From: Chryseobacterium sp. | Lineage (GTDB): Bacteria; Bacteroidota; Bacteroidia; Flavobacteriales; Weeksellaceae | Direction of reading: 5' to 3' | Assembly (NCBI RefSeq): GCF_008014695.1 | Contig: NZ_VOXE01000001.1 | Coordinates: 828,627-892,626, forward strand | DNA length: 64,000 nucleotides | Shown here: one piece after another, positions 25,080 through 56,566 of the stretch | How positions within the stretch are numbered: the stretch's first letter is position 1 | Layout of the letters: each line of letters starts with the position of its first letter | Position numbers and translations under genes: made by a program | Notes under the pieces: model-generated | Databases searched by the model: none | The model's input: only the letters and a program-made list of their open reading frames with translations | Told to the model about the DNA's origin: nothing

Positions 25080-26615
25080 ATGAAAAGTACATTCAATTTA
25101 TTTGATTTATCTCATAAGGTAAATTACAAAACAGAAATTTTAGCAGGTCTCACCGTTGCAATGACGATGATTCCGGAATCGCTTTCCTTTGCGATTTTAG
25201 CCGGCTTTCCTCCACTAACGGGGCTTTATGCTGCTTTTATCATGGGGCTTGTCACGGCGGTTTTAGGTGGTAGGCCTGGAATGGTATCGGGAGGTGCCGG
25301 TGCAACAGTTATTGTTCTTATCGCACTTATGAAATCCCACGGTCTAGAATATGTTTTTGGAGCCGTGGCGCTCGCCGGCATCATTCAGATTGCAGTCGGA
25401 CTGCTAAAACTCGGAAAATTCATCCGGCTCGTTCCGCAGCCCGTGATGTTTGGGTTTGTAAACGGGCTCGCCATCGTTATTTTTATGTCGCAGCTGGAAC
25501 AGTTCAAAACAGTTGTAAACGGGAATACTGAATGGCTGACCGGAACTCCTTTCCTGATGATGGCCGCCTTGGTTGCGCTGACCATTGCAATCGTTATCCT
25601 TTTTCCTAAAATCACGAAAAAAATTCCGGCTTCATTGGTTGCAATTGTAGTGGTATTTACGTTGGTGATGGTCCTGAATATCGACACCAAACAGGTCGAA
25701 GATATCGCTTCCGTTAGCGGAACCTTTCCCCCATTCCACATTCCCAATATTCCGCTGAATCTGGAAGCTTTTCAGGTGATCCTTCCTTACGGCTTAATTA
25801 TGGCGGCAGTAGGGTTAACGGAAGGGCTTTTAACCCTGAATTTGGTGGATGAAATTACTGTAACAAAAGGAAACAGTAACCGCGAATGTGTCGCACAGGG
25901 AAGCGCCAATATCCTTAACGGTTTTTTCTTTGGAATGGGTGGCTGCCCGATGATTGCGCAGACGCTCGTTAATCTTTCAGCAGGTTCTAGAGCAAGACTT
26001 TCCGGCATTATCGCTTCCCTAACGATCCTGGTCATCATTTTGGTTGGCGCACCTGTGATCGGTAAATTACCGATGGCAGCTTTGACCGGAGTCATGATTA
26101 TGGTGGCGATGGGAACCTTTGAATGGGCCAGTCTCAAAATCTTTAAAAGAATGCCGAAATCCGATATTTTTGTCATGATTGTAGTGATGCTTATCACTGT
26201 CTTCCTGCACAACCTTGCTTTGGCGGTGCTGATTGGCGTAATTATCTCAGCGCTCGTGTTTTCCTGGGACAATGCAAAACGCATCAGGGCGAGAAAGTAT
26301 GTTGACGAAAACGGCGTAAAACATTATGAAATCTGCGGACCGCTGTTTTTCGGATCTGTGACCGGATTTTCAGAAAAATTTGACATTGCCAGTGATCCCG
26401 CGGAAGTAATCATTGATTTTGAAGAAAGCCGTGTTGTAGATATGTCGGCCATCGAGGCATTGAACGCCGTTACAGCCCGTTATTATAAAGAAGGCAAAAA
26501 AGTACATCTTCGGCATTTAAGCCCCGACTGTATTGTTTTACTTCAAAATGCAGCTGCAATCATTGATGTAAACATCATGGAGGATCCGATTTATATGGTT
26601 GCGGAAAGAAAATAA
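25080..26615 (+). CDS. SulP-family inorganic anion transporter with STAS domain
   Basis: About eleven membrane helices begin with the family signature (NYKTEILAGLTVAMTMIPESLSFAILAGFPPLTGLYAAF). The C-terminal STAS domain covers about residues 400-505 (VIIDFEESRVVDMSAIEALNAVTARY). SulP proteins move sulfate, bicarbonate or other anions across the inner membrane. The 511-residue length is normal. It has its own promoter with a structured leader upstream and faces a convergent ClC gene 31 bp beyond its end. The substrate is not evident. Confidence 0.93.
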   Translation: MKSTFNLFDLSHKVNYKTEILAGLTVAMTMIPESLSFAILAGFPPLTGLYAAFIMGLVTAVLGGRPGMVSGGAGATVIVLIALMKSHGLEYVFGAVALAGIIQIAVGLLKLGKFIRLVPQPVMFGFVNGLAIVIFMSQLEQFKTVVNGNTEWLTGTPFLMMAALVALTIAIVILFPKITKKIPASLVAIVVVFTLVMVLNIDTKQVEDIASVSGTFPPFHIPNIPLNLEAFQVILPYGLIMAAVGLTEGLLTLNLVDEITVTKGNSNRECVAQGSANILNGFFFGMGGCPMIAQTLVNLSAGSRARLSGIIASLTILVIILVGAPVIGKLPMAALTGVMIMVAMGTFEWASLKIFKRMPKSDIFVMIVVMLITVFLHNLALAVLIGVIISALVFSWDNAKRIRARKYVDENGVKHYEICGPLFFGSVTGFSEKFDIASDPAEVIIDFEESRVVDMSAIEALNAVTARYYKEGKKVHLRHLSPDCIVLLQNAAAIIDVNIMEDPIYMVAERK

Positions 26616-26619
26616 GCTA

Positions 26620-26643
26620 TTCCCAGATTTATTAAAATGGGAA
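26620..26643. terminator. weak hairpin between convergent SulP and ClC genes
   Basis: TTCCCA (26620-26625) pairs with TGGGAA (26638-26643) around a 12-nt AT-rich loop, with A/T-rich flanks on both sides. The 6-bp stem is weak, but the position fits a shared terminator. Confidence 0.35.
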
Positions 26644-26646
26644 AAT

Positions 26647-28032
26647 TTAAGTGACTCTTTTGATGTATTTGTCTTTTAGCAGATCGTAAAATGCATGTTT
26701 GTTAACGAGCGTCGATACAATATTTGCCAAAATAGCGCCCACAAGTAAAAGAAATATAATGCTGTGCCGGTCCGTCATTTCAAGAATGATAATCGCCGAG
26801 GTAAAAGGTGCCCGTGTAACGCCAGTCAGGAAGCCCGTCATCCCGATTAGAATAAGGATGTTAGCGTTCTGCCCGGTTAAATCTAAAAACTGTGCAATCA
26901 GCGCCCCGAAAGTAGCTCCGGAACTTAATGAAGGAGCAAAAACCCCGCCCGCTCCGCCAAAACTGAAAGACGCAATCAGTCCGTTCATTCTGAGAAACGG
27001 CAGGTACCACTCCACTTTTTTGTTATCGGAAAAAAGCAACCGCTCCATGAGTTCTTTTCCGGACCCCATCGCTTCGGTTCCGAAATAAAAGATAAAAAAG
27101 GCCACAAAAAATCCACATAAGAGCACAATCAAGACCTGATGCGAATTCTTTTTGAATTTTTCGAAAAAGTTCATAACCATGATAATGACATCACACATTT
27201 TACTTCCGAAATAACCTGAAACGATGGCTGTAATAGTAATTCCCAGCATCACCAACCATCCGTGGTATTCCGTTTTTGGGTAACCCAGATACAGATAACT
27301 TCCCCCAAAACCCTGCGCGGTCAATCCGGCAATGATTACCGCTATAAAAAGTGGCGATTTAATGTGCTTGATATGGAATTTCGAAAGTTCTTCGATGGCG
27401 AAAATGATTCCTCCTAACGGGGTATTAAAGGCCGCAGCCAGCCCAGATGCCGCCCCGGCAATCATTACATTTTTTTGGGAAACGGGCAGCCACCATTTCG
27501 GCAGCAGGCGGTGTACTTCTACAAAAACAGATCCTGCGATCTGTATGGTGGGTCCTTCTCTTCCGGCGATTCCACCTCCCAAAACCTTAACAGCACTTGC
27601 AAGGATTTTAATCAGGATCACTTTAAAACTCAAAAAATTGCTTACCAAATGTCGGGTACCCTGTTTAGACAAATCCACAGAAGCCATAATCTGCGGAATG
27701 CCGCTTCCGGCGGAATATTTCGCAAACCTCCGGACCAGATACCAGGAGACCAGAAAGCTGAGCGGTGTCAGAAAAAATATCGTATATCTGCTTTGCTGAA
27801 ATAAATAATAGGCAAAACTTTCGGAAAAAGTAAAAACAAGTGAGTACAGATAGGCAATGAGGCCTGTTATAAACGAGGCAACCAAAAACGGCAAAAACTG
27901 CAGAAACTGCTTTTTCAGAGAAGAATTGGCTTCGGTCGTCCTGTCGTAAAGATGCTTAAAGTAAATAATAATAAATCGTACCCAAAAAGTGTTTTTCAGA
28001 TCAACTAACCTTCGCTTGTATTTATACTTCAT
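26647..28032 (-). CDS. ClC-family voltage-gated chloride channel/antiporter
   Basis: The selectivity motifs are intact: GSGIPQ (residues about 95-100), GGGIAGREGPTIQIAGS, and SFGGAGGVFAPSLSSGATFGALIA. The protein has about ten to twelve membrane segments and no C-terminal CBS domains. The gating Glu in GREGP is present. It lies 30 bp downstream of the DUF389 gene on the minus strand and is probably co-transcribed. ClC proteins of this type exchange chloride for protons in acid resistance or halide homeostasis. Confidence 0.94.
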   Translation of the reverse strand: MKYKYKRRLVDLKNTFWVRFIIIYFKHLYDRTTEANSSLKKQFLQFLPFLVASFITGLIAYLYSLVFTFSESFAYYLFQQSRYTIFFLTPLSFLVSWYLVRRFAKYSAGSGIPQIMASVDLSKQGTRHLVSNFLSFKVILIKILASAVKVLGGGIAGREGPTIQIAGSVFVEVHRLLPKWWLPVSQKNVMIAGAASGLAAAFNTPLGGIIFAIEELSKFHIKHIKSPLFIAVIIAGLTAQGFGGSYLYLGYPKTEYHGWLVMLGITITAIVSGYFGSKMCDVIIMVMNFFEKFKKNSHQVLIVLLCGFFVAFFIFYFGTEAMGSGKELMERLLFSDNKKVEWYLPFLRMNGLIASFSFGGAGGVFAPSLSSGATFGALIAQFLDLTGQNANILILIGMTGFLTGVTRAPFTSAIIILEMTDRHSIIFLLLVGAILANIVSTLVNKHAFYDLLKDKYIKRVT

Positions 28033-46638: not shown

Positions 46639-47262
46639 TCAGAGATTCTCATTTCGGGCAAGCCAGTCTTTCAGGGACTCGATTTCGGCAGTCTGGGTTT
46701 TGACAATTGCACTGCAGAGTTTCAGCAGCTCCTGTTCTTTGCCGTATTCCAGGTAGACTTTGGCCATGTCGACCGCGCTCTGATGGTGGGGAATCATCTG
46801 CTGGGCATAATCCCGATCGATATCGTTGTGAACGGGAATGTTTTTATCCATCATTGCGGACATCGAACGGTTAAGGTCCTGCTGAAAGGCCTTATGATCA
46901 GCGGAGGTTTCCTTCCGGTCTGCAAACTTTTTCATCAACCCGATCTCGGCGTTCTGCGCATCAATAACTTTCTTTGCAAAGGTTCTGAGTTCCTTATCTT
47001 TTCCTTGTTCCAGAAGCAGTTCCGACATTTCCATGGCGCCTTTGTGATGTTCGATCATCATTTTTGAGAAATCTGCATCGGTATTTCCGGTGGGGGTTGC
47101 GCGGTGCATTTCGTCCATCATGTTGGCCATAAGGGCGACCATTTCGTTTTTGGTTTCGGTTTCATGGTGTTGTTGGGGCGGATTTCCGGATGTTTTAGGC
47201 TCCGTTTTGTTACAGGAAGCAGCCACCAATGCGATTGAAGCGGCGAGCAAAAGGTTTTTCAT
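46639..47262 (-). CDS. DUF305 lipoprotein (ferritin-like)
   Basis: A lipoprotein signal peptide (lipobox AASC, Cys about 17) precedes two DUF305 repeats: MMIEHHKGAMEMSELLLEQGKDKELRTFAKKVIDAQNAEIGLMKKF, then QQMIPHHQSAVDMAKVYLEYGKEQELLKLCSAIVKTQTAEIESLKDWL. The HH and E/Q pattern may bind metal, and family members are often linked to copper. It lies directly left of the cassette-like region, divergent from it. Length 207 is normal. Confidence 0.92.
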   Translation of the reverse strand: MKNLLLAASIALVAASCNKTEPKTSGNPPQQHHETETKNEMVALMANMMDEMHRATPTGNTDADFSKMMIEHHKGAMEMSELLLEQGKDKELRTFAKKVIDAQNAEIGLMKKFADRKETSADHKAFQQDLNRSMSAMMDKNIPVHNDIDRDYAQQMIPHHQSAVDMAKVYLEYGKEQELLKLCSAIVKTQTAEIESLKDWLARNENL

Positions 47263-47412: not shown

Positions 47413-47589
47413 AAAACTGTGTTTTTCATTCTGGCTTTTTTCTGTCAGATTGTCATGATTGGCAATGGTATTTCCCGGGAGTTTTGCAGCAACCTATTCA
47501 AGCTTGGAATTTCATGTGGAGGAGTCTGCTGCTAATAAAAAACCAGTACAATGACTTATTAAATATAAATGATATATTAGTGCAAGTAA

Positions 47590-47637
47590 ATAGGTCTGAC
47601 TTTTATCAGACCTATCCCTACAAAAACAGGGGATAGG
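47590..47637 (+). promoter_or_regulatory. two mutually exclusive hairpins
   Basis: ATAGGTCTGA (47590-47599) pairs with TCAGACCTAT (47606-47615), a perfect 10-bp stem. CCTATCCC (47611-47618) also pairs with GGGATAGG (47630-47637), 8 bp. The two share CCTAT, so only one can form at a time. They lie 70-120 bp before the first cassette gene and look like an attenuator or a folded recombination site. Confidence 0.55.
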
Positions 47638-47708
47638 ACTGACAGGAGGAGGCATATATACTAGTTGTGTGCAATTTTCAGAACTTAACAATAACTAAAA
47701 CCTAAATT

Positions 47709-48113
47709 ATGACAGCAGAAGAACTAAAAGTTAAAACAAAAGATGAAATAATGGACTTTATCCGAAAAAGATTGAGTTTCGATGAAGGTACTGCAGGCTC
47801 AATCAGACAGTCGGAAACTGAACGTAAACAACATAAAAGATTTGATATGTCTGGTTACGAATCAAAGACTGGTCAATGTACTGTTTGGAATGCATCTGTA
47901 TTAAATGAATTTGCTGATTTAGGGATATACGATTATACATCTTATCTATTTTTAGATTTCTATAAAGGTAACCCAAGACTTTACTTAAAATACTTTAATG
48001 AAAATGAGAATTTAGAATTTGACGAATGGGGCGGATATGGAACAACAGAAATAATTTATAAGATTTTTGAATTAACCATTTTTTCTAATAAGGGAAAACG
48101 TAGAAGAATTTAA
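47709..48113 (+). CDS. small protein of unknown function, cassette-like module
   Basis: A 134-residue soluble protein with Lys/Glu-rich helices at the N-terminus, an aromatic-rich middle (YDYTSYLFLDFYKGNPRLYLKYF) and a basic end (KGKRRRI). There is no signal peptide, membrane segment or motif I recognise. Base composition is AT-richer than the chromosomal genes on either side. The next gene begins 5 bp downstream, so they form a pair bounded by the inverted GTTGTGTGCA repeats. A toxin-antitoxin or immunity pair is possible but not shown. Confidence 0.7.
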   Translation: MTAEELKVKTKDEIMDFIRKRLSFDEGTAGSIRQSETERKQHKRFDMSGYESKTGQCTVWNASVLNEFADLGIYDYTSYLFLDFYKGNPRLYLKYFNENENLEFDEWGGYGTTEIIYKIFELTIFSNKGKRRRI

Positions 48114-48118
48114 AAGTT

Positions 48119-48379
48119 ATGAAAGAAAATGATAGGTTTAATATATATAATTTAGATGCACATCGTATTTCCTATGGCAGTATGACTGAACCCGAAAGAT
48201 TTACCTTATATGGTAGCAATGGAAATTATATAGCGTATGGAATTTTTAATGGTCCAGAAAATTTCTCAGTTTACAATTTAAAAGGGGAAAGAATATCTTA
48301 TGGAATTATGAACGGAAGAACAGATTTTAACATTTATGATTTAGACGGAGAACGCACCTCATATGGAATTCTAGAATAA
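48119..48379 (+). CDS. small protein made of four 21-residue repeats
   Basis: The 86-residue protein is four near-identical repeats of exactly 21 residues, with Phe at 7, 28, 49 and 70 and Tyr-Gly at 19-20, 40-41, 61-62 and 82-83. The repeat pattern is about F-x-hydrophobic-Y-[N/D/G]-x-x-G-x-x-x-[S/A]-Y-G, like a beta-hairpin repeat. It resembles MORN- or YD-type beta repeats in spirit but fits no family I can name. It follows the 134-residue gene by 5 bp and likely acts with it. Confidence 0.72.
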   Translation: MKENDRFNIYNLDAHRISYGSMTEPERFTLYGSNGNYIAYGIFNGPENFSVYNLKGERISYGIMNGRTDFNIYDLDGERTSYGILE

Positions 48380-48384
48380 AAAAC

Positions 48385-48518
48385 TGCACACAACAGCCGT
48401 TTGGCGTAATGGCTGGTTTAGTTTTTCTTAGCCGGAAATTACTAAGTTGAAATTTTGCTTATCTTAGAACAAATTATTAAAAAAGCCGCAACTGACGCCA
48501 AGTGGCGGAACGTTAGCC
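48385..48518 (+). other. attC-like folded recombination element
   Basis: The element runs from TGCACACAAC (48385-48394), just after a stop codon, to GTTAGCC (48512-48518), just before the next gene. Ends of the RYYYAAC/GTTRRRY kind, about 130 bp apart, are the shape of integron attC sites. Inside, GCCGTTTGGCGT (48396-48407) pairs with ACGCCAAGTGGC (48495-48506) with 10 of 12 matches, giving a long imperfect fold. The end motifs match the integron consensus only in part (AAC and GTT are exact). Sequence shows the fold; recombination is inference. Confidence 0.5.
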
Positions 48519-48525
48519 AAATTTT

Positions 48526-49581
48526 ATGAAAGCACAAATAATAAGAGATTTTCACGAAAATAATTCAATTTACAATTTATTCTGTGATAGATTAAAAAAT
48601 CTGATTACCGATTTATTACGTCAAGACGGGATAATCATACACAATCTTAATAGTAGAGTAAAAGATATACAAAGTCTATCGAAGAAAATTGATAAAAAAG
48701 TTGGTAAGTATAATACGTTAACTGACATTACTGATTTAGTAGGCATAAGAATTATTTCACATCTTGAAAGTGAAGTAAATTTAATTGAAAAATTAGTAAG
48801 AAAAGAATTTAAAATTGATGAAATAAATTCAATTGATAAAAGAGAATTAAATAATGACCAATTTGGATACCGTTCTTTGCATTTAGTTATCTCATTGAAT
48901 GATGAAAGAGCGAATTTAACAGAATATTCTAAATACAAAGATTTAAAATGTGAGATACAAATTAGATCAATTTTACAGCATGCTTGGGCTGAAATAGAGC
49001 ATGATTTAGGATATAAAGGTAAAACTCAAATCCCAGACCAGTATAAAAGAAATTTCAATAGATTATCAGCATTACTTGAAACAGCAGATAAAGAATTTGA
49101 CAGATTAAAACAAGAATTGTCAATTTACGAAGAAGAAGTTTCAGAATTAATTTTATCAGAACCTCAAAATGTAAGTATTGATAAAACTAGCTTAAGAAAA
49201 TTTAATGCAGAAAATGAAATTTTAATTGAGGCAAGAAATTTTCTTGAAAATAAATTAGGTTGGAAATACATTAATTATATTGATAACTTAGAAGAAATTA
49301 TTGAAAGATTCGCATACTTTAAAATGAAAACAATTAAAGATATTAGTGATTCTTTGATTGAGAATAAAGATTTATTTTTCAAATTTTTGGATGTTTTTAC
49401 AGAGGGATTTAAATATGACGAAATTTCAACTGAAATTGTAATTTATTATTTCCAACATTTTTTAGCGGCCAAATCAGAAAATGTAGATTATGTAACAGGT
49501 TATCTAAATTTTGAGTATAAAATTGGTGGAGAATCTAAAGAATTTATCGAAACATTCCAAAAAGCCAAAAACTTCAACTAA
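48526..49581 (+). CDS. RelA/SpoT-domain alarmone synthetase, cassette-borne
   Basis: The synthetase domain (about 20-170) has its key residues: NSRVKDIQSLSKKI (R44, K46), DLVGIRI (D70), YRSLHLVI (Y115), and EIQIRSILQHAWAEIEHDLGYK (E143 to H159). It would make (p)ppGpp or a related nucleotide. There is no HD hydrolase or TGS/ACT domain, so it is a stand-alone synthetase, and a C-terminal about 170-residue extension is of unknown kind. Stand-alone RelA/SpoT proteins in mobile settings are often toxSAS toxins or phage-sensing effectors, but no antitoxin is evident nearby. The gene starts 7 bp after the attC-like end. Confidence 0.82.
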   Translation: MKAQIIRDFHENNSIYNLFCDRLKNLITDLLRQDGIIIHNLNSRVKDIQSLSKKIDKKVGKYNTLTDITDLVGIRIISHLESEVNLIEKLVRKEFKIDEINSIDKRELNNDQFGYRSLHLVISLNDERANLTEYSKYKDLKCEIQIRSILQHAWAEIEHDLGYKGKTQIPDQYKRNFNRLSALLETADKEFDRLKQELSIYEEEVSELILSEPQNVSIDKTSLRKFNAENEILIEARNFLENKLGWKYINYIDNLEEIIERFAYFKMKTIKDISDSLIENKDLFFKFLDVFTEGFKYDEISTEIVIYYFQHFLAAKSENVDYVTGYLNFEYKIGGESKEFIETFQKAKNFN

Positions 49582-49820
49582 CATGGGTAAGCGTTGCATA
49601 ACCCTAATTTTCCGGCGTTAGGTTTAAACCCTATAGAAAACAACCTCTTTTAAGCGATTTAAGAGAGGTTTTTGTTTTTGACGATTTATGGCCACACGAT
49701 GCAATCGTGCGGCAGCAGGGTTAGTTTTCATCATAATTTCTATCTTAGCAGATAGTACGCTGCTCCCCTCCTGGCAACTAACGCAAAACCGAGAAACGTT
49801 ATACAAAAGCCTTACAGAAG
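49582..49820. other. structured spacer between cassette-like genes
   Basis: Holds GTTAGGT (49614-49620 region), a terminator-like hairpin (AACCTCT...AGAGGTT with T-run, about 49642-49678), a CACGAT-gca-ATCGTG hairpin (about 49695-49709) inside GGCCAC..CGTGCGG, and a CTATCT-tagc-AGATAG hairpin. GTTATAC (about 49797) precedes the next gene. Confidence 0.5.
49690..49724 (+). repeat. copy 1 of the GGCC...CGTGCGG structured repeat
   Basis: GGCCACACGATGCAATCGTG-CGGCAGCAGGG. Related copies lie at 50429 (short), 51179 (inverted), 51830 and, in part, 52931. Confidence 0.5.
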
Positions 49821-50321
49821 ATGAAATTAAAAGAATTGGCAGATAAAGAGATTGAATTGCACTCAAAAGTAACTTTATTGGAAGGGACAATTGAATACAA
49901 GGAGCATTTTGTCTTGAATTCTGGAATACCAGAACAGTATAAACGGATTCATGCTCAATATTCCCAACTTGCCCATTCAGAAAATGAAGCGTTAAAACGA
50001 GGATTATTTATTCAGTGGTATTCTCTTGCAGAACCATTGTGGTTAAGCGGTATTTCTGAATTGAGTAAAGATTCCGAACAAAAGATAATCTCCATCTTAA
50101 ACGATAAAATTCTTGCTGGTAAAGTTGATAATGAATTAAAATGGATGCTTGAGTACTATTTGGACTGGGATTGGGTGTTCAAAAAATATGAAGGATTACC
50201 TGGTATTGATAAAGCCATTCGTGAAAGAAAAAATGAAATGCCAGATCATATTAATTCCGAAGAAATGAATCAAAGAGGACAAATGGGAATATATTGGAAT
50301 TCAATTTCAATATGGGAATAA
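49821..50321 (+). CDS. protein of unknown function, cassette-like module
   Basis: A 166-residue soluble protein, mostly helical. It contains a Trp/aromatic-rich middle (IQWYSLAEPLWLSGISELSKDSEQKIISILNDKI) and ends in IYWNSISIWE. No signal peptide, membrane helix or family I recognise; HEAT-like helical packing is possible. Low GC and plus orientation match the other cassette-like genes. The spacer downstream starts with a perfect CTACAGC-agt-GCTGTAG hairpin (50331-50347). Confidence 0.7.
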   Translation: MKLKELADKEIELHSKVTLLEGTIEYKEHFVLNSGIPEQYKRIHAQYSQLAHSENEALKRGLFIQWYSLAEPLWLSGISELSKDSEQKIISILNDKILAGKVDNELKWMLEYYLDWDWVFKKYEGLPGIDKAIRERKNEMPDHINSEEMNQRGQMGIYWNSISIWE

Positions 50322-50586
50322 AATAAAAGGCTACAGCAGTGCTGTAGATTACGCGAACGAACAAGGACTTCAGGATGACATCTTGGTTTTCCGGATATTT
50401 GATTTTTGGTGTGTTTCGATTTTAGTATGGCCACACGTGCGGAAGCGGAGGAAAGTTTATTTACGATATAAAGAAAAAAAGATATCTTAGTGACAGAAAT
50501 AAATCTTACAAAAAGCAAACAAATTCCTACCAAATGGGCGGTAGTTGTTTGAGGATAAGACCTATATACAAGTTAGCCGTAATTCT
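50322..50586. other. structured spacer between cassette-like genes
   Basis: It holds a CTACAGC-agt-GCTGTAG hairpin (50331-50347), a short copy of the GGCCACACGTGCGG repeat (50429-50455), and a bulged inverted repeat, CAAACAA...CTACC with GGTAG-TTGTTTG (50516-50551). GTTAGCC (50572-50578) is followed by GTAATTCTATG at the next gene's start. Confidence 0.55.
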
Positions 50587-51117
50587 ATGATTGAAGCACT
50601 TGAGAGAATATATTCATTTTTTAGATTCCCTTTTCCTTTTTGTTTTGGAGTAGCATTTATTGGTATTGTTTTGCTTTTATCTTCCAACGTTTTAAAGAGT
50701 TTGAAAATAAATTCAAAAAAAATTCAAATTATAGGCTTCATTTTAATTGGTCAGTTATTTATTGTTGGGTTAATTTTAGTTTTATTACAATCTATAATTC
50801 TAAATGAGATTAGAAATGAATTTATTAGAATTTTAGAAAGCCCAAAAACTCAAATTGTACAAACTGACAAAAACTTTGGAATTTTTACATCTGATGAATT
50901 AAAGGTTGAACTAATAAAAATTAAAGAATATTCCCCACATCATTCAGGAACATCGAATGAAATGAAACTCAAACTTGTTAATCCAGACAACAATTTTAAT
51001 ATAAAAGTATTTCGTGATTCTCAAAACCCAAATGAATATTGGATCTTCACTGACAAATATTGGTTTGGAAGTAAAGATGAAGAAATTGGAAGAATTACAA
51101 CAAACAAATTCAAGTAA
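50587..51117 (+). CDS. membrane protein of unknown function, cassette-like module
   Basis: The start is ATG 50587 (MIEALERIYSFFRF), right after GTTAGCCGTAATTCT. A longer frame from 50545 would cover the repeat and is not credible. Two membrane helices (about 18-37 and 50-75) are followed by a soluble domain of about 100 residues that ends in YWIFTDKYWFGSKDEEIGRI. No family recognised. Confidence 0.72.
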   Translation: MIEALERIYSFFRFPFPFCFGVAFIGIVLLLSSNVLKSLKINSKKIQIIGFILIGQLFIVGLILVLLQSIILNEIRNEFIRILESPKTQIVQTDKNFGIFTSDELKVELIKIKEYSPHHSGTSNEMKLKLVNPDNNFNIKVFRDSQNPNEYWIFTDKYWFGSKDEEIGRITTNKFK

Positions 51118-51178
51118 AACTACAGGTAATAACTAAGCTTTCGTCTTGTCCGCAGGACACGAGATCAAAGCCCGTTGA

Positions 51179-51205
51179 ACCCCGCACGAATCCTTCGCGT
51201 GGCCC
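51179..51205 (-). repeat. inverted copy of the GGCC...CGTGCGG repeat
   Basis: On the minus strand this reads GGCCACGCGAAGGATTCGTG-CGGGGTTC, the same hairpin-forming repeat as at 49690 and 51830, but in the other orientation. Confidence 0.45.
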
Positions 51206-51268
51206 CCACCATCGTATTTTCAGCATTTGAAACTGCCTTCCAACAGAAATACCGTTATATATAATTCT

Positions 51269-51763
51269 ATGAAATGTACGCCTACAAATCAAGTTCAGAG
51301 AATCGCACTATTCTTTTTATTGGTGTTGTTCTCCACCTGTATTGCTCAAAGTAAGGAATGTGAATTAAAAATTACGGCAGATGTTTCTGAACTAAATCTT
51401 GATGGCAAAATTTATCTGACTGTAAACAATACGGGCAATAAAAAAGCGAAGATTTTAAGAAATTACCATGCTTATAAAATGCAGATTTTAAATGCATTTG
51501 TTTACGACGAAAAGAGCAATGAATTTGTGCCGCTAAATTTTAATTATGCTGACATCGATTTTTTCAGGCAGGAGAAAACTCAACTTTTAAGGCCGAGAAA
51601 ATCAAAAACTTACACAGTAAATATTTTTGAAACCTATCAAGGAGAAACATTGCTGAAAAATCACCAATATAAATTTGATTTGGCTTTTAATTTTGATGAT
51701 CTTTACGAATGCAAATTGGACGGTTTCACTGAACTTAAAAACATCGAATACAAGCCAAATTAA
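51269..51763 (+). CDS. exported protein of unknown function, cassette-like module
   Basis: The start is ATG 51269 (MKCTPTNQVQRIALFF), following CGTTATATATAATTCT. A signal peptide (about 1-32) with a possible lipobox-like FSTC and cleavage near IAQ precedes about 135 residues of beta-rich domain (CELKITADVSELNLDGKIYLTVNNTGNKKAKIL, like an Ig-type fold). No family recognised. The first about 45 bases of the gene, with 30 bases upstream, are repeated at 53468-53541. Confidence 0.75.
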   Translation: MKCTPTNQVQRIALFFLLVLFSTCIAQSKECELKITADVSELNLDGKIYLTVNNTGNKKAKILRNYHAYKMQILNAFVYDEKSNEFVPLNFNYADIDFFRQEKTQLLRPRKSKTYTVNIFETYQGETLLKNHQYKFDLAFNFDDLYECKLDGFTELKNIEYKPN

Positions 51764-51829
51764 ACTACTGCGACGCTTCCGCGCGATATTTGAATTTTAA
51801 CTTTAATCAGTGGGCTAAATTAAAGATTT

Positions 51830-51906
51830 GGCCGCGCCGAATCTGCAAATTCGTGCGGAAAGCAGGGGGAAATTACGATTAGCGTTGGAGAATTTGTTTA
51901 TATTTG
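51830..51906 (+). promoter_or_regulatory. repeat element with hairpin and -7 promoter
   Basis: CCGC-GCCGAAT...ATTCG-TGCGG forms a hairpin (51831-51857), followed by AGCAGGGGGAAATTACG and TATATTTG (51899-51906), a TAnnTTTG box. The same module, 52931-53000, precedes the gene at 53025. The repeat thus delivers a promoter to the gene next to it. Confidence 0.55.
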
Positions 51907-51942
51907 GGATTAGGAGTAATTTTAAACCATATCATCTCGAAC

Positions 51943-52557
51943 ATGGAAAGTATTATCTCAAAGAGTGGCTTAAGAAAAAAAGCTGACGAAATCAAGGACG
52001 GCAGATGCAAAAATTTAATTGCTGTTTTAGAAGAACCTTCCGATCCAAAAAATATTGGAACGGTGATTCGAAATATCAATGCGCTTGGAGTTGAAAAACT
52101 TTACATCGTTAATAGCAGAAATACAAATCCACCAACCTGGGATGCGATTCGAGAAACAAAATCATTATTAAAAACTTCGGTATCTGCAGTTAAATGGACT
52201 TTTGTAAAACAATTCAAAAGTACTGAAGAATGTTTGGACCACCTTGAAAAAAATAAATTTACATCTATTGTAACTTCCCCACACATAAAAGGAAAAACCA
52301 ACGTCATACTTCAGGAAGGAGATTTTACTCAAAAAAGGCTTGCGGTTTGGTTTGGGAATGAATCCCGTGGCGTAAGCGATTTATTAATCGAGCGAAGCGA
52401 TGCCTGTGTAAGTATTGAAATGTACGGAATCGTGGAAAGTCTAAATCTTGCTACTTCTACGGGAATCGTCCTGTATGAAATCACTAAACAAAGAAGAGCA
52501 TATCAGAAAATAAATAAAAGAGGCAGGAAAAATGACCCTCCTATAAAATCTGAATAG
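51943..52557 (+). CDS. SpoU/TrmH-type RNA methyltransferase (SPOUT)
   Basis: The SPOUT core motifs are clear: DPKNIGTVIRNINALGVEKLYIVNS (motif 1), LAVWFGNESRGVSDLLIERSDACVSIEMYGIVESLNLATSTGIVLYE (motifs 2 and 3, with the N-E-S-R-G knot). It would methylate the 2'-O of a ribose in tRNA or rRNA. At 204 residues there is no extra RNA-binding domain. ATG 51943 is used, since an upstream TTG at 51904 lies in the -7 box. The basic tail (KINKRGRKNDP) may bind RNA. Confidence 0.88.
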   Translation: MESIISKSGLRKKADEIKDGRCKNLIAVLEEPSDPKNIGTVIRNINALGVEKLYIVNSRNTNPPTWDAIRETKSLLKTSVSAVKWTFVKQFKSTEECLDHLEKNKFTSIVTSPHIKGKTNVILQEGDFTQKRLAVWFGNESRGVSDLLIERSDACVSIEMYGIVESLNLATSTGIVLYEITKQRRAYQKINKRGRKNDPPIKSE

Positions 52558-52670
52558 GCAAAAAACTGCGGCTTACTTTTAAAGCGATTCAAGGTCGGTT
52601 TTTTTGAGGTCATCTGTAAAATGGGGCGAAAAGAGACCAGTAATGTGTTTTGTATTATTACATAAAGAAA

Positions 52671-52690
52671 GAGCGGGCTAAAGCCCGCTC
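52671..52690. terminator. perfect hairpin of the GGCTAAAGCC family
   Basis: GAGCGGGC and GCCCGCTC pair over 8 bp around TAAA, 41 bp beyond the stop of the E1 gene fragment. It could have been the terminator of the original E1 gene. Related hairpins lie at 61582-61600 and 62256-62279. Confidence 0.6.
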
Positions 52691-52730
52691 CTATTGATTT
52701 TAACGCTCTAATAAAAAGCATCAAATTATT

Positions 52731-52921
52731 TTAAATCTTAGGAAATTTCGTAGGATTGATTTCATTGAATAACGCGTAAACCTTCTCCACCATATCATCC
52801 ACACTCGGTTTGCTGAAATAATCGCCGTCGCTGGCGTAGGCCGGCCGGTGGTTTTCTGCACAGATCGTGAGCGGGTCGGAATCGAGGCATCTGAAGGCTT
52901 TCTGTTTTTCCAGGATCTGCT
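52731..52921 (-). pseudogene. 3' fragment of a 2-oxoacid dehydrogenase E1 gene
   Basis: On the minus strand this codes for the last about 62 residues of an E1 protein, ending VYALFNEINPTKFPKI. By eye it is about 93% identical (about a dozen mismatches in 185 bases) to the 3' end of the intact fused E1 gene at 54087-54275, most differences lying near the stop. It has no start. The match ends abruptly at CAGGATCTGCT. It looks like the displaced original end of the E1 gene after an insertion. Confidence 0.85.
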
Positions 52922-52930
52922 TTTAGCTCT

Positions 52931-53000
52931 GCTGAATCTGCGATTTTTGTGAGGCAGCGAGGGAAATTACGATTTGCGTAGCAGAATATGTGTATATTTG
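52931..53000 (+). promoter_or_regulatory. second copy of the promoter-bearing repeat
   Basis: GCTGAATCTGCGATTTTTGTG... up to GTATATTTG parallels 51837-51906. TATATTTG (52993-53000) is a -7 box, 25 bp from the ATG at 53025, and TTTG at 52973-52976 is a weak -33 (16-bp spacing). Confidence 0.5.
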
Positions 53001-53024
53001 AATTCAGCAGAAATTATAACCACA

Positions 53025-53369
53025 ATGAGCCGCGAACGAAGGTTACTTTTAATAACACTTTTTATTATTCCAGTTATTGTTTCTGCTCACGGACAAGAAG
53101 CTTTATATATCCTGTTTTGGGAAGGTCTATTGGTAATTATCCTGCTTATCCTTATCACTGCTCTAAAAATCAATCTTAAAAAAAAATTGATATTAGCCGG
53201 GTTATCTTCCCTCTCGATAATTGCAACTTTGCTGATTATAAGTAAAATTTCTTACCGAGGAAATGAGTTTAAAATAAACTTAATAATATTCTTAATTCCC
53301 ACAATCACATTTCTTATTACTTTTTTGTTTTTGAAATTTAAATCAAAAAGACATGATGAAATTGAGTAA
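53025..53369 (+). CDS. small membrane protein of unknown function, cassette-like module
   Basis: The start is ATG 53025 (MSRERRLLLITLF), 25 bp after the -7 box; a longer frame from 52974 would overlap the promoter. The 114-residue protein has four hydrophobic segments (about 8-22, 26-43, 49-69 and 77-100) and a charged end (KSKRHDEIE). A HGQ motif lies near the first helix. Not recognised. It lies in DNA between the displaced and current ends of the E1 gene. Confidence 0.65.
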   Translation: MSRERRLLLITLFIIPVIVSAHGQEALYILFWEGLLVIILLILITALKINLKKKLILAGLSSLSIIATLLIISKISYRGNEFKINLIIFLIPTITFLITFLFLKFKSKRHDEIE

Positions 53370-53467
53370 AATAACTTTTGTAAATATTTATTTCAGCAGG
53401 GTTGAATGTTACATATAGATTCCTCTAATTGATTTGTTATTTACAAAGCCTCATTATGAAAATACCT

Positions 53468-53564
53468 CCAACAGGAATACCGTTATATGCAATTCTATGA
53501 AAAGCACGCCTATAAATCGAGTTCAGAGAATCGCAATATTCGCAAAACTTCAATGTAAATACTA
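53468..53564 (+). pseudogene. truncated copy of the exported-protein gene start
   Basis: 53468-53541 repeats 51240-51313 (about 8 mismatches in 74), covering the CCGTTATATGCAATTCT leader and the first about 15 codons of the exported protein gene, from ATG 53497. The frame then leaves the copied part and stops after 22 codons at TAA 53563-53565, which overlaps the next ATG (TAATG). It may act as a leader ORF for the DUF4160 gene. Confidence 0.6.
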
Positions 53565-53921
53565 ATGACACAAGAAGATTTTTTTAGTAATGTTTTAACT
53601 GAGTTAGTTAATATTTATTGGTCATATAGCGAAGCACAGATAGATGCCATGGTTAGTATTCCTGGCCTAGAAATCAAGGAAAAAGTCGCACGTATTAATG
53701 ATTTAAACATCATTATTTACTCAAATGATCATGATCCGCCACATTTCCATGTAATTTCCAAGGACAAAAGTATTGATGCAAAGTTTACAATTGCGAACTG
53801 CGAATTAATCGCTGGTGAAATGAATGCGAAAAATATGAAAAGAATATTTGCCTTTTATAATTCTGCTAAAACAAAAATGATCTTGGAAAAAATTTGGAAT
53901 AAAAAAACGAATAAACCATAA
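53565..53921 (+). CDS. DUF4160-domain protein
   Basis: The C-terminal about 80 residues match the DUF4160 family, with the hallmark LNIIIYSNDHDPPHFHV (residues about 50-66) and a following short helix-strand region. An N-terminal about 40-residue extension precedes it. DUF4160 proteins often sit next to DUF2442 proteins and in toxin-antitoxin-like loci; no DUF2442 gene is present here. Start ATG overlaps the stop of a truncated leader ORF (TAATG). Confidence 0.82.
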   Translation: MTQEDFFSNVLTELVNIYWSYSEAQIDAMVSIPGLEIKEKVARINDLNIIIYSNDHDPPHFHVISKDKSIDAKFTIANCELIAGEMNAKNMKRIFAFYNSAKTKMILEKIWNKKTNKP

Positions 53922-54040
53922 CAGATAATTACGGTAACCGTGGTACAACATCTTATTTCAGGCAATATCCTTTAAAACAAATTCTTTAGAGCGATTTAGG
54001 AGTGATTTTTACAGCAATTCCACTATTTAAATGAATAAAA

Positions 54041-54067
54041 AAACTGCCCCATACTATGGAGCAGTTT
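54041..54067. terminator. intrinsic terminator of the fused E1 gene
   Basis: AAACTGC(C)CC pairs with GG(A)GCAGTTT across ATACTAT, with one internal mismatch. On the minus strand a long T-run follows. It closely resembles the lpd terminator at 45117. Confidence 0.75.
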
Positions 54068-54086
54068 TTTTATAGTCTTAAATTCT

Positions 54087-56516
54087 TTATATGTTTGGAA
54101 ATTTCGCCGGGTTGATCTCATTGAACAAAGCGTAGACTTTCTCCACCATATCATCCACACTTGGTTTGCTGAAATAATCGCCATCGCTGGCGTAGGCCGG
54201 ACGGTGGTTTTCTGCACAGATCGTGAGCGGGTCGGAATCGAGGTATCTGAAGGCTTTCTGTTTTTCCAGGATCTGCTGAAGGATAAAGGCTGAAGTTCCG
54301 CCTTCCACATCTTCGTCGATCACGACCAAACGGTTCGTTTTCTTAACGCTTTCCGCGATTTCGCTGGATAAATCGAACGGAATGAGAGACTGTACATCGA
54401 TCACTTCCGCAGAAATGCCGATTTTTTCCAGTTCCTCCGCGGCTTCCATGACGAGTCTCCACGTAGAGCCATAGGTCACGAGGGTGACGTCGGTTCCTTC
54501 TTTCGTTACTTCAATTTTTCCGACCGGAACGGTGAATTCACCCAGATTGTCCGGCTGTTTTTCCTTGAGGCGGTAACCGTTCAGACATTCCACAATCAGG
54601 GCCGGTTCGTCGCTCTGGAGCATCGTGTTGTAAAATCCTGCCGCTTTTGTCAGATTTCTCGGCACAAGAACCAAAATCCCTTTGGAAAGGTTGATGATCC
54701 CTGCCATTGGAGAGCCTGAATGCCAAACCCCTTCAAGCCTATGACCGCGGGTCCGGATGATGACCGGTGCTTTCTGTCCGCCTTTTGTGCGGTACTGAAC
54801 CGTGGCAAGGTCGTCGCTCATGCCCTGAATGCAGTATAAAATATAGTCGAGATACTGGATTTCGGCGATCGGCCTTAAACCGCGCATCGCCATTCCAATT
54901 CCCTGACCGAGAATGGTGGCTTCACGGATCCCGGTATCGGCAATCCTGAGTTCGCCGTATTTTTCCTGAAGGCCTTCCAGTCCCTGGTTTACGTCGCCAA
55001 TATTTCCGGCATCTTCGCCAAAAACAAGGGTTTCGGGATATTTGCTGAATATCTTATCGAAATTGTTCCTTACCACTACCCTTCCGTCAACGGTTTCTGA
55101 AGCGTCGGAAAAGACCGGCATCACCTCTTTGACATTCGTCGCCTTTAAAGCCGACTGGGAGTATAAATGGGAGGAATAATTGTCTTTTTCAACCGCGAAA
55201 AGTTCAGTGAACCTATTCTGGAGCTGTTTTCTTTCACTGGAATCGGTGCCTCTCGTGAGGAAGAGTGATTTTCTTATCAAATGGAAGAGGTCCCTTTTTG
55301 CGGGAGCCACTACTTTGCTGAATTTTTCCATCTCCGCAGCAATGTCTGCATTCTGGGATTTGAGATTTTCCACCAAAGGCAACACGGTATTTTTCAGATC
55401 CTGAATGGTCTTCTGATAATTTTCCCAGGCTTTTTTCTGGCCTTCCTTCACGTATTTTTTCGCTTCTTCCTCTATTTTATCCAGTTCTTCAGCGGTGGCC
55501 AGCTGTTCTTCATTTTCTTCAATCTCGATGGAATAATTCAGGATCCACTCCCTGAATTTGTGCAGGCCGTCGAAGTCGCCTTCAAATTTCAGGCGGTCCT
55601 CATTCTTATATCTTTCGTGAGAACCTGAGGTAGAGTGACCCTGCGGCTGCGTAACTTCCACAACATGCACGACCACCGGAACGCTTTCGGTCCTGGCAAA
55701 ATGTTCTGCTCTCGCATAGGCATCCAGCAGCGACGGATAATCCCAGGCTTTCACCTGAATGATCTCACAGCCTTGGTTTTCGCCTTCCTTTCTCTGGAAG
55801 CCGGAAAGCATTTCAGAAATGTCGGCTTTTGCACGCTGGTTCTGGGTCGGAACCGAAATCCCGTACCCATCGTCCCAAATCGAAACGATCATCGGCACCT
55901 GAAGCGCACAGGCGGCATTCAAAGTTTCCCAGAAATGCCCTTCCGCGGTAGAGGCATCACCGATGGTTCCAAACGCCACTTCATTCCCATTATCGGAGAA
56001 TTTTTCTGACCCTTCAAACTTTACGGATTTGTATATTTTGGAAGCCTGCGCCAGACCCAAAAGTCTCGGCATCTGACCTGCAGTCGGGGAAATATCAGAG
56101 GAAATGTTTTTCTGCTCCATGAGGTTTTTCCAGGAGCCGTCTTCATTCAGACTGCGTGTGGCATAATGCCCGTTCATCTGGCGGCCGGCAGAAGCCGGTT
56201 CACGCTCCACGCTCGTATCGGCATAGAGCTGCGCAAAGAAACTTTCCACGGTTACGGCACCGATCGCCATTGCAAACGTCTGGTCGCGGTAATAGCCGGA
56301 GCGGAAATCACCGTTTTTGAAGACTTTCGCCATCGCCAACTGGGGAAGTTCCTTTCCGTCGCCGAAAATCCCGAACTTCGCTTTACCGGTCAGAACCTCT
56401 CTTCTGCCCAGATAGGACATCTCGCGGGAAATCCGTCCCAGTCTGTAATCTTCTACAATATTGTTCTTAAAATCCTGAAAAGAAATCTGCTGGGTTTCGA
56501 TATAGGTGGTTTCCAT
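54087..56516 (-). CDS. fused 2-oxoacid dehydrogenase E1 (alpha plus beta)
   Basis: E1 decarboxylates 2-oxoacids with thiamine diphosphate. The start is ATG 56516 (METTYIETQQIS). Residues about 1-380 are an E1-alpha part (TPP motif GDASTAEGHFWETLNAACALQVPMIVSIWDDGYGIS). Residues about 470-809 are an E1-beta part (VFGEDAGNIGDVNQGLEGLQEKYG, IVIDEDVEGGTSAFILQQI). Known relatives act on branched-chain or other 2-oxoacids. The last about 63 codons differ from the fragment at 52731, so this 3' end may be newly acquired. Confidence 0.93.
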   Translation of the reverse strand: METTYIETQQISFQDFKNNIVEDYRLGRISREMSYLGRREVLTGKAKFGIFGDGKELPQLAMAKVFKNGDFRSGYYRDQTFAMAIGAVTVESFFAQLYADTSVEREPASAGRQMNGHYATRSLNEDGSWKNLMEQKNISSDISPTAGQMPRLLGLAQASKIYKSVKFEGSEKFSDNGNEVAFGTIGDASTAEGHFWETLNAACALQVPMIVSIWDDGYGISVPTQNQRAKADISEMLSGFQRKEGENQGCEIIQVKAWDYPSLLDAYARAEHFARTESVPVVVHVVEVTQPQGHSTSGSHERYKNEDRLKFEGDFDGLHKFREWILNYSIEIEENEEQLATAEELDKIEEEAKKYVKEGQKKAWENYQKTIQDLKNTVLPLVENLKSQNADIAAEMEKFSKVVAPAKRDLFHLIRKSLFLTRGTDSSERKQLQNRFTELFAVEKDNYSSHLYSQSALKATNVKEVMPVFSDASETVDGRVVVRNNFDKIFSKYPETLVFGEDAGNIGDVNQGLEGLQEKYGELRIADTGIREATILGQGIGMAMRGLRPIAEIQYLDYILYCIQGMSDDLATVQYRTKGGQKAPVIIRTRGHRLEGVWHSGSPMAGIINLSKGILVLVPRNLTKAAGFYNTMLQSDEPALIVECLNGYRLKEKQPDNLGEFTVPVGKIEVTKEGTDVTLVTYGSTWRLVMEAAEELEKIGISAEVIDVQSLIPFDLSSEIAESVKKTNRLVVIDEDVEGGTSAFILQQILEKQKAFRYLDSDPLTICAENHRPAYASDGDYFSKPSVDDMVEKVYALFNEINPAKFPNI

Positions 56517-56532
56517 AAAATCTGAGTTTGTA

Positions 56533-56566
56533 CAAAAATAAGAATTATTCAGCAAATAACACCAAA
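56533..56566 (-). promoter_or_regulatory. promoter of the fused E1 gene
   Basis: On the minus strand TTTG (56563-56566) and TATTTTTG (56533-56540) are 22 bp apart, a Bacteroidota promoter, 16 bp upstream of the ATG at 56516. Confidence 0.55.

Follow-up and report, generated by a model that had tools for sequence, protein, structure and literature searches.

The R' box of integrons has the consensus GTTRRRY. The additional domain around patch III of the integron integrase IntI is held to be necessary for integron recombination (PMC9668308), and a subgroup of integron-like recombinases has been described in which this insertion is not fully conserved (PMC8138268). Clusters of attC sites without an integrase are known as CALIN (PMC9024848, PMC9668308), the rule given for them being at least two attC sites less than 4 kb apart (PMC9668308). 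The integrons of Treponema show an atypical orientation and the R' box GTTAGGT (PMC3607928), and delta-attI-type cassettes of mobile integrons recombine with IntI1 (PMC12901181). Bacteroidota are listed among the integron-bearing phyla (PMC8618304). As set out in the account of IntegronFinder 2.0, a complete integron in Bacteroidetes proper is present only in Salinibacter ruber M1, and only integrases without cassettes had been found earlier (PMC9024848). Here we describe a locus in a 64,000-nt stretch of the Chryseobacterium sp. contig NZ_VOXE01000001.1 (the window). We hold with good confidence that positions 47,535-53,921 of the window are a cassette locus, integrase-less and likely in decay, of an integron-like system. 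Parts of this system are found in many Flavobacteriales, and a divergent tyrosine recombinase, encoded beside such arrays in relatives, is predicted to insert its cassettes.

Cassette ends and spacers in the window

The locus lies between DUF305 (46639-47262, minus strand)/lpdA and a fused E1 gene (54087-56555, minus strand). It contains nine open reading frames (ORFs), all on the plus strand and, except between g1 and g2, separated by gaps of 146-467 bp. The initial annotation had the strand right, but counted about eight genes at a spacing of 130-470 bp. Cassette 1 (47664-48394, plus strand) starts with the R' box GTTGTGTGCA (47664-47673), contains the genes g1 and g2, and ends with the R'' box TGCACACAAC (48385-48394). 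The two boxes are exact complements over 10 nt, and the extended ends (GTTGTGTGCAATTTT at 47664 and AAAACTGCACACAAC to 48394) score 13 over 15 positions. Complementary R' and R'' boxes of this kind are the signature of integron cassettes. When the 64 kb were scanned for 10-mers (GTTR followed by six nucleotides) with an exact complement 200-1800 bp downstream, three pairs were found against a null of 0.77, and one of these is cassette 1. For 35 cassette windows taken from four arrays, eight of them from the window, the mean best end complement is 5.51, compared with 4.66 +/- 0.21 after reassignment of the ends (0/500 as high).

Several spacers of the locus match sites in other genomes; in the following, L-numbers denote fetched loci and G-numbers genomes, with G000 being the genome of the window itself. 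The attC-like site S1 (48392-48514, plus strand) is 123 bp long and runs from AAC to GTT. Its left arm matches a site in L272 at 83% over 35 nt (E 5e-6), its right arm matches another L272 site at 85% over 33 nt (E 6e-5), and both arms are found together in one L274 site (80% and 82%). Closed with its own cassette start, S1 folds with a z score of -3.2 to -3.3. S7 (53379-53484, plus strand; GTT at 53482) is a shortened site of the SP2 type, SP2 being the attC-like site family of the relatives. The covariance model CM R1 scores S7 at 29.8 bits, which corresponds to E 4.7e-5 for the window and to E 0.002 for the genome, and nhmmer gives 27.6 bits, compared with a best score of 11.5 bits in 60 shuffled windows and the reversed window. 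The window has two strong sites, S1 and S7, which lie 4.9 kb apart; S2 and S4 are partial matches only.

Two further spacers are attI-like and resemble DNA that in other loci is situated directly 3' of INT(a). INT(a) and INT(b) are two related tyrosine recombinase families that occur beside arrays. S0 (47535-47665, plus strand) precedes cassette 1 and consists of a stem, CCTATCCC/GGGATAGG, with an outer CAG/CTG and the core GCATATATACTAG|TT. It shows 70-75% identity to the DNA directly 3' of INT(a) in L155, L154/L206 (the same place), L151, and L215, and the stem is preserved with letters differing on both arms. In the window, S0 has no adjoining integrase gene. The second attI-like site, S3 (50467-50574, plus strand; GTT at 50572), begins at the apparent 3' tip of a recombinase gene and matches the corresponding DNA in L154/L206, L161, L213, L151, L155, L159, and L215 at 76-81%.

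The remaining spacers are of mixed composition. S2 (49582-49800, plus strand; GTT at 49798) is a cassette-end spacer, the left half of which belongs to a family found in other array regions (74-81% to L211 at two places, L209, L223, and L183); the end-complement test did not find a clear own-end complement to cassette 2 for it. S4 (51118-51256, plus strand; GTT at 51254) is chimeric. Its left part of ~63 bp belongs to the cassette-end family and has 40 blastn matches in the fetched loci, two of which are the window's own copies, and its right end, CCAACAGAAATACCGTT, resembles by eye the right arm of SP2 sites. S5 (51867-51942, plus strand) contains the promoter-like junction TATATTTG and is a 76-80% repeat of 52961-53019; S5 and S6b are alike. 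By eye, S5 looks like the GCGTATATTTGAG|GTTA junctions beside INT(b), and from this likeness over ~25 nt we tentatively regard S5 and S6b as candidate attI(b)-like stretches. The array of the window is a mosaic in which attC-like spacers stand beside attI-like and flank-derived ones.

The initial annotation proposed an array of integron-like cassettes with no visible integrase. This proposal is supported because of the ends of cassette 1, the attC-like S1 and S7, the attI-like S0 and S3 with their matches in other genomes, and the lack of an intact recombinase of the INT kind. It has to be corrected in that the spacers are a mosaic, that only one cassette is perfect, and that part of the locus is a duplication of the E1 3' end. 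GTT(A) motifs do precede genes as had been pointed out, at 48512, 49798, 50572, 51254, and 53482, but the short motif is weak on the scale of the genome. Allowing up to one mismatch, CGTTANNNNNAATTNTATG has seven matches in the own genome, equal to the seven for a reversed control; exact matches number two genome-wide, and both are inside the locus. The motif GTTA...AATTNTATG was therefore dropped as a genome-wide marker, being without enrichment in the genome.

Site family and recombinases in related genomes

A covariance-model search for matching sites in G000, in which 150 of 2319 candidates were scored, revealed at least 13 SP2-type sites (E<=0.01). Further arrays of the own genome are located at C2:562-577k (L099), C3:605-610k (L100), and C1:453-462k (L220). 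In the family, where the best two candidates per genome were scored, the SP2 query matches at least 47 of 296 genomes, and at least 32 of 36 within the genus. L222 carries 28 SP2 sites within 20 kb; there are 17 in L223.

In the SP2 arrays, 58 consecutive cassettes reveal the code by which cassette ends are paired. The consensus of the cassette start is GTTRNNNGCAA, and just one of the 58 starts fits the R' consensus GTTRRRY. The four variable nucleotides after GTT are perfectly complementary to the cassette's own end in 48 of the 58, with a mean of 3.66 of 4, compared with 1.59 +/- 0.14 for shuffled ends and a maximum of 2.17 in 1000 shuffles. As an in situ control, the cassette end and the cassette start that flank one and the same spacer were compared, and these agree perfectly in 7 of 57 cases. 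The end code of the relatives is GTTRNNNGCAA...TTGCNNNYAAC.

The sites between these ends share a conserved structure. In an 18-pair stem aligned over 30 sites, including one of the window, 96.8% of the cells are paired, and seven pairs show double changes, compared with 2.7 +/- 0.9 after shuffling (0/500 as high). When the stem is slid, only 45-52% of the cells pair, with 0-5 double-change pairs. The spacers are mostly 113-121 bp long. The attC-like sites were also collected without any model, via paired cassette ends, and these spacers are mostly 117-119 bp and diverse in sequence; the 118 listed include both orientations of each site, and their ORF-based orientation is imperfect. Among 67 oriented sites, some of which are duplicates in the wrong orientation, 50 are more stable on the strand opposite to the genes. 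Hence complementary R' and R'' boxes and a structure-conserved folded site with the bottom strand favored, both features of integrons, are found in the relatives, and S1 of the window on its own lacks the latter. Likewise, an attI-like stretch beside the recombinase is found in the relatives, and the attI-like S0 of the window stands without an integrase.

INT(a) proteins have 346-373 residues and are transcribed toward the array, whereas INT(b) proteins (356-376 residues in the first five loci) are divergent from it. The first cassette is situated 89-127 bp beyond the end of the INT(a) match in 9 of 12 loci examined; in the divergent layout of INT(b), the first cassettes adjoin the 5' end of the gene. 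INT is found in 30 of the 36 genus genomes searched, in G172 as a 105-residue fragment only, and was not found in G000 (own), G026, G129, G100, G075, and G085. In the wider order, 47 of 246 Flavobacteriales genomes, from 26 of 81 genera, contain INT relatives (E<=1e-60), some of which lack the N-terminal part.

Sites and recombinases occur together more often than in control loci. The fetched stretches around the 20 best-scoring new INT hits, all loci of the genus outside the earlier fetched set, contain SP2 sites (E<=1e-3) in 9 of 20 cases, compared with 1 of 32 E1 control loci, which include all of L013-L044 (Fisher p 0.0004). At all nine positive INT loci, the sites closest to INT, of which up to three were listed, are in the orientation specific for the family. 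The end-pair scan, compared with its null as above, gives 50 pairs against 11.5 for these 20 loci, with a pair present in 15 of them, and 47 against 11.8 for 20 of the 49 INT matches from the Flavobacteriales search. The control loci, from which L013, L014, and L024 were left out, give 13 against 10.7 (29 loci) and 11 against 16.9 (48 loci).

With the IntI model TIGR02249 (cut-off 265 bits), no protein of the own genome or of the 296 family genomes is above the cut-off; the INT(a) and INT(b) representatives reach 206.7 bits each, in two stretches. NF040815 (cut-off 220 bits), which has the NCBI name "site-specific tyrosine recombinase/integron integrase," gives 221.5 bits for the INT(a) representative, which passes, and 217.2 bits for INT(b). 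The INT(a) on NZ_CP041688.1 carries the same name. When one INT(a) was aligned to Vibrio IntI4 (2a3v) by phmmer, the match fell into two pieces and IntI4 residues 209-245 had no counterpart; ten further INTs align to that INT(a) without an insert in the region. The IntI-specific additional domain (patch III) is not found in the aligned INT(a). Because the scores remain below the TIGR02249 cut-off and residues 209-245 are skipped, these comparisons indicate that the array recombinase of the relatives is not a typical IntI.

In the own genome, the matches to PF00589 and TIGR02249 include none of the INT(a) or INT(b) kind, and no intact recombinase of that kind is present, in agreement with the lack of a visible integrase noted initially. 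Tyrosine recombinases of 310 and 300 residues were taken for XerD and XerC and set aside, as were those of 432 and 419 residues, which are not of the INT(a)/INT(b) kind. A tyrosine recombinase fragment with stops is located at L102:3160-3760 (own genome C2:139.2k), by eye near tmRNA, and fragments that share its stop pattern occur in G070 and G215. At L205:6968-12052, repeated pairs of a 272-278-residue tyrosine recombinase gene and an IS91-like transposase gene (by eye) are situated beside SP2 sites; the recombinase of these IS91-like elements was not taken for the array recombinase. A plasmid search with one attC-like query gave no match, and the SP2 query matched one plasmid. L290 (NZ_CP041688.1:16032-17075), where INT(a) is accompanied by SP2-type sites, belongs to a 66-kb plasmid of Chryseobacterium sp. 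SNU WT5, which means that plasmids can carry the platform.

Proposed mechanism, flank duplications, and alternative explanations

In the mechanism that we infer from these sequences, INT would recombine the folded sites at G|TT, acting on single strands as for attC, with the attI-like stretch as the place where small gene cassettes would be inserted. A promoter-like box of this stretch would express the first cassettes; the consensus of such a box is TAnnTTTG. In the window, the recombinase gene is missing, and cassette 1 behind S0 remains intact in form. The later cassettes are without matching ends, which would be expected once the enzyme had been lost. The locus was rearranged when the E1 3' end and attI-like DNA were duplicated, presumably via homologous or illegitimate recombination. 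Going beyond the window, we lean toward the view that Flavobacteriales possess an integron class of their own, with two tyrosine recombinase families that are not IntI and lack its additional domain, its own end code, and folded sites of a near-constant 117-119 bp, of which the window is an integrase-less remnant. To the same degree we favor the corollary that this class has been overlooked since the models for integrases and for sites are geared to IntI.

At 52600-52921 (minus strand), the window carries a duplicate of the E1 3' end together with an outer flank that is older. The copy itself, 52730-52921, is in the same orientation as E1 and is 92% identical over 192 bp to the own E1 3' end. 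The outer flank of the copy matches L014 only, and the present E1 end with its flank matches L013 (93% over 294 bp); the copy is absent from the inserts of 26 relatives. A later insertion likely introduced a new E1 end while the previous one stayed in place, so that the copy would mark successive insertions. A comparable arrangement exists in L099 (own genome C2:557600-577500), which contains ~14 short genes with ~250-bp spacers. Each of the ~14 spacers at C2:562-575k combines the hopJ 3' end, in antisense, with a promoter-bearing segment that is located upstream of hopJ in relatives. In nine relatives, one or a few genes are inserted at this same place between hopJ and pnp. Because its spacers hold hopJ 3' DNA, the C2 array was dropped as a classical attC array and treated as chimeric. 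An L099 spacer is matched in 108 of 296 family genomes, but most of 30 checked loci are the hopJ gene itself, and the spacer was dropped as a widespread element and the count not used as evidence. The E1 3' copy and the hopJ-derived spacers are the flanking-gene repeats that RecA-type accretion would leave, and because of them recombination between long repeats is read as also shaping these loci in the own genome.

Accretion by homologous recombination could in principle explain the whole locus. Incoming cargo DNA would recombine with a core gene at the flank or with one of the repeated spacers, leaving a copy of the flank, with no site-specific recombinase involved. Arrays of type VI secretion system (T6SS) immunity genes in Vibrio cholerae reportedly grow by such sequential displacement, with repeated remnants of flanking gene ends, in a model without site-specific ends. 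The E1 and hopJ fragments resemble those remnants. The 192-bp E1 copy with its older flank and the hopJ-derived spacers of the same genome are what accretion predicts; it fails to predict that cassette starts complement their own ends, that the stem covaries, that the spacers are nearly uniform in length and diverse in sequence, and that a recombinase is found at a fixed distance. We therefore consider accretion alone unlikely. That the locus is an ordinary variable intergenic region, in which unrelated genes arrived by repeated insertions and GTTA motifs occur by chance, would fit the short motif's lack of enrichment (7 against 7 in the control) and the five of nine cargo proteins without a Pfam match. 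This is contradicted by S1, S7, S0, S3, and the cassette 1 ends, and is very improbable. The cassette ends are inverted repeats, GTTR...YAAC, and might be read as the termini of small transposon-like elements beside which the tyrosine recombinase is an unrelated neighbor. The repeats, however, vary between cassettes and match mainly their own partner, the cassettes are tandem and co-directional, and the position and orientation of the recombinase are regular; we give this explanation hardly any weight.

A number of observations weigh against the preferred reading, an integrase-less cassette locus of an integron-like system. Perfectly complementary ends are present in only one of about eight window cassettes, the seven others scoring 0 to 6, and the two other 10-mer pairs of the window (25661-27256 and 48446-49430) are chance-like, the second spanning S1 and the Rel gene. 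The spacers had initially been described as folded DNA, which applies to S1 closed with its cassette start; S1 alone is no more stable than its shuffles (z -0.5 top, 0.0 bottom), and S7 mispairs. S0 and S3 also match places without an adjoining INT (L224 for both, and also L213:1397 for S3, which matches the two places at 74-80%), and the attI-like assignment of S5 and S6b spans just ~25 nt. In the genus set, 11 of the 20 INT loci have no SP2 site, three of the nine positive loci rely on weak nearest-site matches (E 2e-5 to 8e-4), and five of the 20 have no exact end pair. The 12 loci examined for the distance to INT belong to another set of 20, and three of them have no cassette near the INT end. 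The eight other loci of that set comprise five without any pair (L276, L280, L283, L287, and L288) and three with pairs on the 5' side of INT. Finally, the spacers of the largest array of the own genome (C2, L099) are explained equally well by homologous recombination.

Cargo, related systems, and biological meaning

A Pfam search with the nine cargo proteins identified RelA_SpoT, SpoU_methylase, and DUF4160 domains, a SieB match below threshold, and no match for five. The accessory cargo named in the initial annotation, a RelA/SpoT protein, a methyltransferase, and a DUF4160 protein, was thereby confirmed. All cargo genes are on the plus strand. In cassette 1, neither g1 (47709-48113) nor g2 (48119-48379) has a Pfam match; by eye, the 86-residue product of g2 contains repeats of the IYDLDGERISYG type. 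Cassette 2 (48512-49581, plus strand) starts with GTTAGCC and encodes a stand-alone RelA/SpoT-domain protein (48526-49581; PF04607, 79 bits) with a PADLOC match to PDC-S33. It is followed by g4 (49821-50321), a protein without a Pfam match, by g5 (50587-51117), which is SieB-like only below the cut-off (20 of 26 bits), and by g6 (51269-51763), without a Pfam match. The start of g6 is repeated at 53467-53541 as a direct repeat of 75 nt with 89% identity. A SpoU-type RNA methylase (51943-52557; PF00588, 108.6 bits) and g8 (53025-53369), a small protein that is hydrophobic by eye and has no Pfam match, are followed by the DUF4160 protein (53565-53921; PF13711, 43.6 bits). The latter lies behind the truncated copy of the g6 start and has a weak PADLOC match to ZorE (E 2e-4). 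No Rfam match at gathering thresholds and no tRNA was found in the window.

The locus is variable among relatives, as had been suggested. In 26 relatives, a single stretch covers E1 and lpdA, the latter at least partly. The two genes are 111 to 9197 bp apart there, and in the more distant of these relatives the gap is filled largely by other genes. The closest relative, L013 (98% E1 identity), carries different cargo, by eye an ATPase; L014 has another gene in the gap; and in L015, L025, L027, and L051 DUF305 is ~90 bp from E1, with no gene between the two. For the nine cargo proteins, tblastn gave no match in 80 fetched E1 loci (E<=1e-5) or in the other fetched loci (E<=1e-4). Neither the same genes in the same order in close relatives nor spacers devoid of conserved structure, the two findings named at the outset as speaking against an array, were observed: the cargo of L013 differs, and S1, S7, S0, and S3 contain conserved sites that other genomes also possess.

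The system resembles IntI integrons, such as the Vibrio superintegron, in its tandem, co-directional small cassettes, the complementarity of R' and R'', and the dozens of sites per array. It also shares with them a folded site for which the strand opposite to the genes is more often the stable one, an attI-like site beside a tyrosine recombinase, and the existence of site-bearing genomes without an integrase. In contrast to IntI integrons, there is no recombinase above the IntI cut-off in the 296 genomes, the aligned INT lacks the IntI insertion, R' is GTTRNNNGCAA rather than GTTRRRY, and the sites are mostly 113-121 bp. The INT(b) platforms are divergent, unlike the Treponema integrons with R' GTTAGGT as described in PMC3607928. 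As in CALIN, the cassette sites of the window have no neighboring integrase, but the distance between S1 and S7 exceeds the 4 kb limit given in PMC9668308, and several spacers are attI-like or chimeric. The order of g4 and then S3, with an attI-like instead of an attC end, recalls the delta-attI cassettes reported in PMC12901181, here at the level of sequence alone. Among the matches listed in a search of the open-licence PMC literature, none describes the Flavobacteriales INT/SP2 system.

If this reading is correct, cassette capture would be common in Flavobacteriales and would proceed via recombinases without the domain that is held to be necessary for it in the account of PMC9668308. The origin of single-strand cassette recombination would then become testable, and a large stock of uncharacterized cassette genes would be opened.

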